DNA from: Methanosarcinales archaeon
GTDB lineage: Archaea; Halobacteriota; Methanosarcinia; Methanosarcinales; Methanocomedenaceae
Assembly (NCBI GenBank): GCA_030610815.1
Contig: JAUWRA010000006.1
Span: forward strand, 1-34,834
Length of the DNA stretch: 34,834 bases
Direction of reading: 5' to 3'
Below, piece after piece: positions 23,001-24,061 of the stretch (the first letter of the stretch is position 1; every line of letters starts with the position of its first letter). A program made the position numbers and the translations under genes. The notes beneath the pieces were generated by a model. It saw only the letters and a list, made by a program, of their open reading frames with translations. It did not search any database and was not told where the DNA came from.

Positions 23001-23966
23001 GATAATTTCCCGAACTGCATCGAGTATATTGATGAGGCGATACAGGCGGTTGCCTCACTGGATGAACCAGTTGATCTAAACTACCCTCGTAAGCACTCGC
23101 TTGAGAGGGTTGAAGGGGGTAGTGACTGGCGGGATGCCACCCTGCGGGTATTCTCATGCAAACCCGGAACGTACGGCAGCGGCGTGAACCTTGCCGTCTA
23201 TGCCAGTGCATGGAAGGAGGAGAAGGACCTGGCCGAGGTCTTTCTTTACTGGAACGGATACGCCTACGGCAAGGACATGAACGGCAAGGAGGCGCACCAG
23301 CATCTTGCGGACAGTTTGAAGACAGTCGATGCGACCTTCAACAAGGTTGTGAGCGATGAATATGACCTCTGCGGCTGCTGCTGTTATTTCGGCACGCACG
23401 GCGGGCTGACCGCAGCAGCACGGCATCTCTCGGGAAAAGAAGTAAAAACTTATTACGGTGATACCAGGGAACCCGAGCATGTCGAGGTCAGGGATCTGGC
23501 AGATGAGATCAGGCGTATCGCCAGGACAAAGCTCCTGAACCCGAAATGGATCGATGGAATGAAGGAGCACGGTTACAAAGGCGCAGGCGACATCTCCAAG
23601 AGGGTCGGACGGGTGTACGGCTGGGAGGCATCCACACAGGAAGTGGATGACTGGGTGTTTGATGATATCACAAAGACCTTTGTGCTGGACGAGGAGATGC
23701 GGCAGTTCTTTGAGGAGAACAATCCCTATGCTCTGGAAGAGATCGCACGCCGTCTGCTGGAAGCCGAATCGCGCGGACTGTGGGATGCTGATCCCGAGGT
23801 ACTCGATGCGCTCAGGAACACATACCTTGAGATCGAGGGATGGATGGAAGACCTTGCTGGCGACGGAGAGTTCCAGGGCGGGTCTGTGGATATCATGGGA
23901 ATGGAAGATATCCCTGACTGGAATGAGAAGATGAAGGAGATCAGAAAAAAGATCAAGGTAGACTAA
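20001..23966 (+). CDS. cobN: CobN-3: CobN/BchH-family chelatase large subunit, Cys-rich subtype with low-complexity linkers
   Basis: 1321 aa; [105 protein letters not shown] before ATG. Confidence 0.92.
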   Translation: [1321 protein letters not shown]

Positions 23967-24061
23967 TGAAATCTGTACTGTTTACTGTTATGTTCGTATT
24001 ATTACTGCTACTATCTTCGGCGCTTCGAGGGATATATGCGTTTACAAGGGGATACTTATGA
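23966..24061 (+). CDS. Unannotated 31-aa hydrophobic small protein MKSVLFTVMFVLLLLLSSALRGIYAFTRGYL
   Basis: Start overlaps cobN-3 stop (TAATG); stop overlaps start of next ABC ATPase (ATGA at 24058-24061); AAGGT SD-like 7 nt upstream; one TM/signal-like segment. Confidence 0.6.
   Translation: MKSVLFTVMFVLLLLLSSALRGIYAFTRGYL

Follow-up and report, generated by a model that had tools for sequence, protein, structure and literature searches.

A 31-codon open reading frame lies between a cobN gene and the ATPase gene of an ABC-2 type exporter in the Methanosarcinales DNA analysed here (34,834 nucleotides of contig JAUWRA010000006.1, hereafter the window), and comparison with related loci indicates that it is almost certainly the in-frame scar of an operon deletion, which would have joined the start of one lost gene, designated g1, to the tail of another, ecfT. 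The ancestral operon would have had the order cobN, g1, ecfA, ecfT, ABC-2 ATPase and permease, and a deletion of about 4.2 kb would have removed the genes of an ECF-type uptake transporter, the scar retaining from g1 the start codon and the codons of the signal peptide, and from ecfT the last 15 codons and the stop codon. The explanation in its full form, which combines this deletion scar with an inferred passive translational relay and a peptide lacking a specific role, is considered very likely.

The micro-ORF, MKSVLFTVMFVLLLLLSSALRGIYAFTRGYL followed by a stop codon, was confirmed on reading the sequence, as were the TAATG, ATGA and AAGGT motifs that a sequence-only reading had assigned to it, and all are present at the positions listed in Table 1. 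Its ATG has one base in common with the TAA of cobN and its TGA overlaps the ATG of the ATPase gene, so that each end carries a stop/start overlap of the -1 or -4 nt kind. No match to the 31-aa peptide was found in Pfam. When the 91-nt gap was shuffled, 1.2% of the shuffles, conditional on an in-frame length, combined an ATG on the cobN stop with a frame that stayed open up to the overlapping TGA, and the chance of a doubly overlapping frame is about 0.4% once the frame factor of 1/3 is included. Taken alone, the double overlap is weak evidence because each genome holds thousands of gaps and a single one was picked. At the paralogous cobN-2/ABC-2 junction of the same window there is a 74-nt gap without a comparable chain of overlaps.

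Table 1. Features at the cobN/exporter junction of the window, with the basis of each assignment.
Feature	Position	Strand	Basis
cobN-like chelatase large subunit, 1321 aa, upstream gene	20001..23966	+	PF02514, E=0; NF004646 CobN above cut-off
SD-like AAGGT inside cobN 3' end	23955..23959	+	read in sequence
TAATG stop/start overlap, probably inherited cobN/g1 junction	23964..23968	+	TGATG in G011 and Methanococcoides
31-aa micro-ORF, probable deletion scar	23966..24061	+	sequence and comparison of related loci
putative remnant, first ~16 codons (signal peptide) of lost g1	23966..24013	+	block identity and position after cobN
probable remnant, last 15 codons and stop of lost ecfT (CbiQ family)	24014..24061	+	nt/aa identity, profile match
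SD-like AAGGGGAT, would serve ATPase start, probably inherited from ecfT tail (RGYL codons)	24046..24053	+	comparison
ATGA overlap, probably inherited EcfT/ATPase junction	24058..24061	+	constant distance between EcfT match end and ATPase start across all intact loci
ABC-2 type exporter ATPase, DrrA-like	24058..24828	+	PF00005; drrA subfamily just below cut-off
ABC-2 type exporter permease, DrrB-like	24825..25550	+	PF01061

Intact forms of the operon are found in several relatives. In G011, an ANME-2 genome from the same family as the window, cobN, g1, EcfA, EcfT, the ABC-2 ATPase and the permease are encoded on one contig, and three intact genes separate cobN from the ATPase gene at this locus (L145), in Methanococcoides (L071 and L150) and at many Methanosarcina loci. 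The EcfA protein of G011 carries two ATP-binding cassettes in 572 aa, and the EcfA proteins of relatives match TIGR04520 above cut-off while their EcfT proteins belong to the CbiQ family, with PF02361 above cut-off. Immediately before the ATPase, Methanosarcina and Methanococcoides encode a 297-aa EcfT that ends in YYTSGLRPVYAIARGYL or YYSTYLREIYAFARWYL and whose stop codon overlaps the ATPase start, and the distance between the EcfT end and the ATPase start does not vary among the intact loci. The g1 gene (L145:3607-5274, minus strand, G011:C98 in G011) also directly follows cobN in Methanosarcina and Methanococcoides, its start overlaps the cobN stop as TGATG in G011 and Methanococcoides, and its product of about 557 aa starts with a signal peptide (MKPILLALVLVLLTLPLSTAQ in Methanococcoides). 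Searches of Pfam and NCBIfam found no family for g1 above cut-off. Its C-terminal part matches PF09819 weakly (E=0.34), and a further weak match is NEW3-like; these suggest a hitherto undescribed substrate component of the ECF type that carries an outer domain. A literature search on cobN and ECF in Methanosarcina found, in the portions of text available, nothing on this operon.

Aligning the window with these loci reveals an abrupt change in DNA identity at about position 24013. The window matches Methanococcoides g1 at 9/12, 8/12 and 6/12 nt in the first three 12-nt blocks and thereafter at chance level, the g1-derived half reading MKSVLFTVMFVLLLLL in the window and MKPILLALVLVLLTLP in Methanococcoides. 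Over the last 48 nt of G011 ecfT, 32 nt are identical to the window, against only 2-5 of 12 just upstream, and the EcfT-derived half, SSALRGIYAFTRGYL, has 11 of 15 amino acids identical to SSELRGIYSLARGYL in G011. Moreover, a profile built from 19 EcfT tails ranked the micro-ORF frame first among 1864 window frames (E=7e-4), with SSALRGIYAFTRGYL as the match. Given these block identities and the EcfT-tail match, the micro-ORF would consist of the g1 start and the ecfT end joined in frame. The EcfT half is the better supported of the two; homology of the g1 half, which is short and hydrophobic, is based on position and about 36 nt, and the junction can be placed only to within a few codons. From the start of g1 or of the micro-ORF to that of the ATPase, the distance is 92 nt in the window versus 4275 nt in G011. 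No match to g1 was found at 1e-15 in the window's genome (G000, 94.8% complete), where EcfT is represented only by paralogues with 36% and 29% identity, the best of them (36%) being located elsewhere in the genome. As judged from sequence, the comparison provides the origin of both ends of the micro-ORF and of both overlaps, and shows that this genome lacks g1.

The neat overlaps at the two ends are attributable to inheritance from the old cobN/g1 and EcfT/ATPase junctions. The cobN tail ahead of the g1 start is identical at 50 of 60 nt between the window and Methanococcoides, and the SD-like AAGGGGAT that falls within the micro-ORF, ahead of the ATPase, has a counterpart, AAGGGGATACCT or a similar sequence, at that position in Methanosarcina and other loci. 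The earlier claim that the double overlap does not reflect intergenic chance is therefore borne out by the relatives rather than by the overlap itself, and the accompanying view of the micro-ORF as an overlooked small gene fails, in that it is not ancestral and relatives hold three full genes in the gap. The MKSV start in common with G015 had also suggested that the ATPase gene acquired an insertion at its 5' end, a reading ruled out by the intact genes in G011, Methanococcoides and Methanosarcina.

Different alleles occupy the same place in other genomes. The window itself belongs to an ANME-2-like archaeon. In its sister species G005 (matching MAG PYCK01000200.1, 'ANME-2 cluster archaeon'), with an ATPase 98% identical to that of the window, the micro-ORF encodes MKSVLFTVMFVLLLLLKRGYL, 21 aa, and is 30 nt shorter, in frame and with both overlaps kept, while a genome of another genus (G087, locus L069) encodes the 12-aa MMRNLVFARGYL. 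There is no separate ORF in G015 and G013, where the g1 start is fused straight to the ATPase frame (MKSVINIIGLTKYFGS); their ATGAAATCTGTA is identical to the start of the window micro-ORF and the fusion reads MKSV-INIIGLTK. All four cobN-adjacent alleles (window, G005, G087/L069 and G015/G013), comprising three overlapping micro-ORFs and one direct ATPase fusion, hold the frame into the ATPase start, and remnants away from cobN (ANME-3, L074 and L076) are frame-broken. The ANME-3 genomes carry longer, decayed ecfT tails, also frame-broken, ahead of the ATPase. Two Methanosarcina-type loci (L074:2700-3020 and L076:1200-1570) contain decayed operon remnants in which the EcfT tail ahead of the ATPase is frame-broken, and in L074 an apparent broken cobN end precedes that tail. 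Conservation of a micro-ORF across homologous loci, which the sequence-only reading had put forward as a check, was not observed; the loci show full genes, scars of 21 and 12 aa, a fusion or frameshifts, an outcome that, by the refuting condition set in that reading, speaks against a conserved functional peptide. The window pair clusters with ANME-3 in the ATPase tree (93/92), G015 joining next (87/89). Loss of the ECF module would have happened repeatedly or stepwise, and the tree settles neither the number of losses nor whether the scar formed in one step or in several.

The overlaps resemble those of termination-reinitiation coupling at ATGA and TAATG, in that -1 and -4 nt overlaps also occur in coupled archaeal gene pairs (PMC6728339, PMC10666635); they differ in that the middle ORF here would be a deletion product and the coupling is a prediction from sequence. 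The latter study describes tests in E. coli in which 15-nt 3' ends of the upstream gene were enough for termination-reinitiation, and reports that separating the genes by about 20 nt nearly abolished coupling in Haloferax as well as in E. coli (PMC10666635). If the scar ORF were absent, 91 nt would separate the cobN stop from the ATPase start. Ribosomes leaving cobN would re-initiate on the scar ORF and then, at the ATGA, on the ATPase, and the scar would passively maintain translational coupling of the ATPase to cobN over a distance that would otherwise preclude it. The overlaps and the in-frame state of all cobN-adjacent scars render the translational coupler proposed earlier possible, although its role is only inferred, and that the scar now acts as such a relay is a tentative reading, to which we give somewhat less than an even chance.

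Retention of the ecfT tail for its ribosome-binding site fits most of the data equally well as a relay. In its fully neutral form, according to which the ORF is open only since the deletion is recent and the ecfT tail remains as carrier of the ATPase ribosome-binding site, this explanation has about an even chance of being correct; the frame-broken ecfT tails of ANME-3 and some Methanosarcina keep an A/G-rich stretch before the ATPase, which speaks for it, whereas the maintenance of frame by four of four cobN-adjacent alleles counts against it. That same count is an argument for selection retaining the scar purely as a relay, such that the only deletions to survive are those in which the cobN stop and the ATPase start stay connected in frame, a proposal to which we likewise give somewhat less than an even chance. 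The four alleles fit the requirements of coupling, because re-initiation after termination depends on overlaps or on very short gaps, experiments showing that coupling requires overlap (PMC10666635), and four independent, frame-random events would all be in frame with a probability of about 1/81, remnants not adjoining cobN being frame-broken. However, the count was made post hoc, the alleles are perhaps nested rather than independent, and the ATPase has its own SD-like AAGGGGAT. The broader generalisation, that selection keeps scars as 'relay ORFs' and that unrelated micro-peptides recur at one place as by-products of coupling, appears unlikely.

A genuine small membrane protein, maintained for its peptide as an exporter subunit or regulator, is very improbable, and so is any function of the peptide itself, since the peptide is not conserved; most likely this short hydrophobic product does nothing specific. 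Its hydrophobicity, the overlaps at both ends and the identity of the first 49 nt past the cobN sense codons in the sister species could be taken to favour such a protein. However, these 49 nt, in which window and G005 differ by no substitution, lie within a 104-nt identity run comparable in length to the flanking runs of 97 and 80 nt in ordinary cobN sequence, so that the identity does not demonstrate selection, and a reading of purifying selection was not upheld. Conservation is limited to two species, and even these differ by 10 residues, with full genes, other scars or a fusion occupying the site elsewhere. A conserved small subunit is rejected on account of this restriction to one sister species, and the earlier suggestion of an exporter subunit or regulator gives way to a peptide composed of two unrelated gene ends.

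As a deletion scar, the micro-ORF is akin to gene remnants and fusion ORFs generated by intra-operon deletion (pseudogene scars), with recognisable, joined ends of two lost genes and a remnant present only in the deletion lineage, other lineages being intact or differently scarred; it differs in that the join is in frame, which leaves the remnant as an open ORF that overlaps its neighbour cleanly on either side. The module lost here corresponds, in relatives, to the EcfA and CbiQ-family EcfT of ECF transporter operons (EcfA, EcfT/CbiQ and S component), but the window keeps only 15 EcfT codons and the S-like g1 has no family match above cut-off. As a micro-ORF created by deletion it makes a neat example and offers little that is new in kind. 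It advises caution in small-ORF discovery, where perfect overlaps at both ends can come from two old junctions without a functional gene. Moreover, the allele set (intact, 31 aa, 21 aa, 12 aa, fused and frameshifted) constitutes a natural series for asking whether operon deletions in archaea are filtered for retained translational coupling, and it documents loss of an ECF-type uptake module adjoining cobN in some ANME lineages.

Several other features of the window concern chelatase and transport genes. A second, paralogous unit of cobN, ABC ATPase and ABC-2 permease is located on the opposite strand (8000-13760), and a third cobN-family gene on the same strand (170-3955), such that three large CobN-type chelatase subunits are encoded in this one 35-kb window, and positions 17560-19575 hold a gene of the ChlI/VWA type. 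Interspersed with the cobN paralogues are ABC transporter genes of the oligopeptide/nickel type, which include two SBP_bac_5 binding proteins (4176-7907 and 13753-17017, minus strand) and, as a speculation, these transporters could replace the lost ECF uptake system. Downstream of the exporter are two adjacent genes (26337-28441, plus strand; 189 and 512 aa) without a Pfam match, followed, just beyond the exporter region, by a possibly truncated ISL3-type transposase gene (PF01610; 28443-29135, minus strand).
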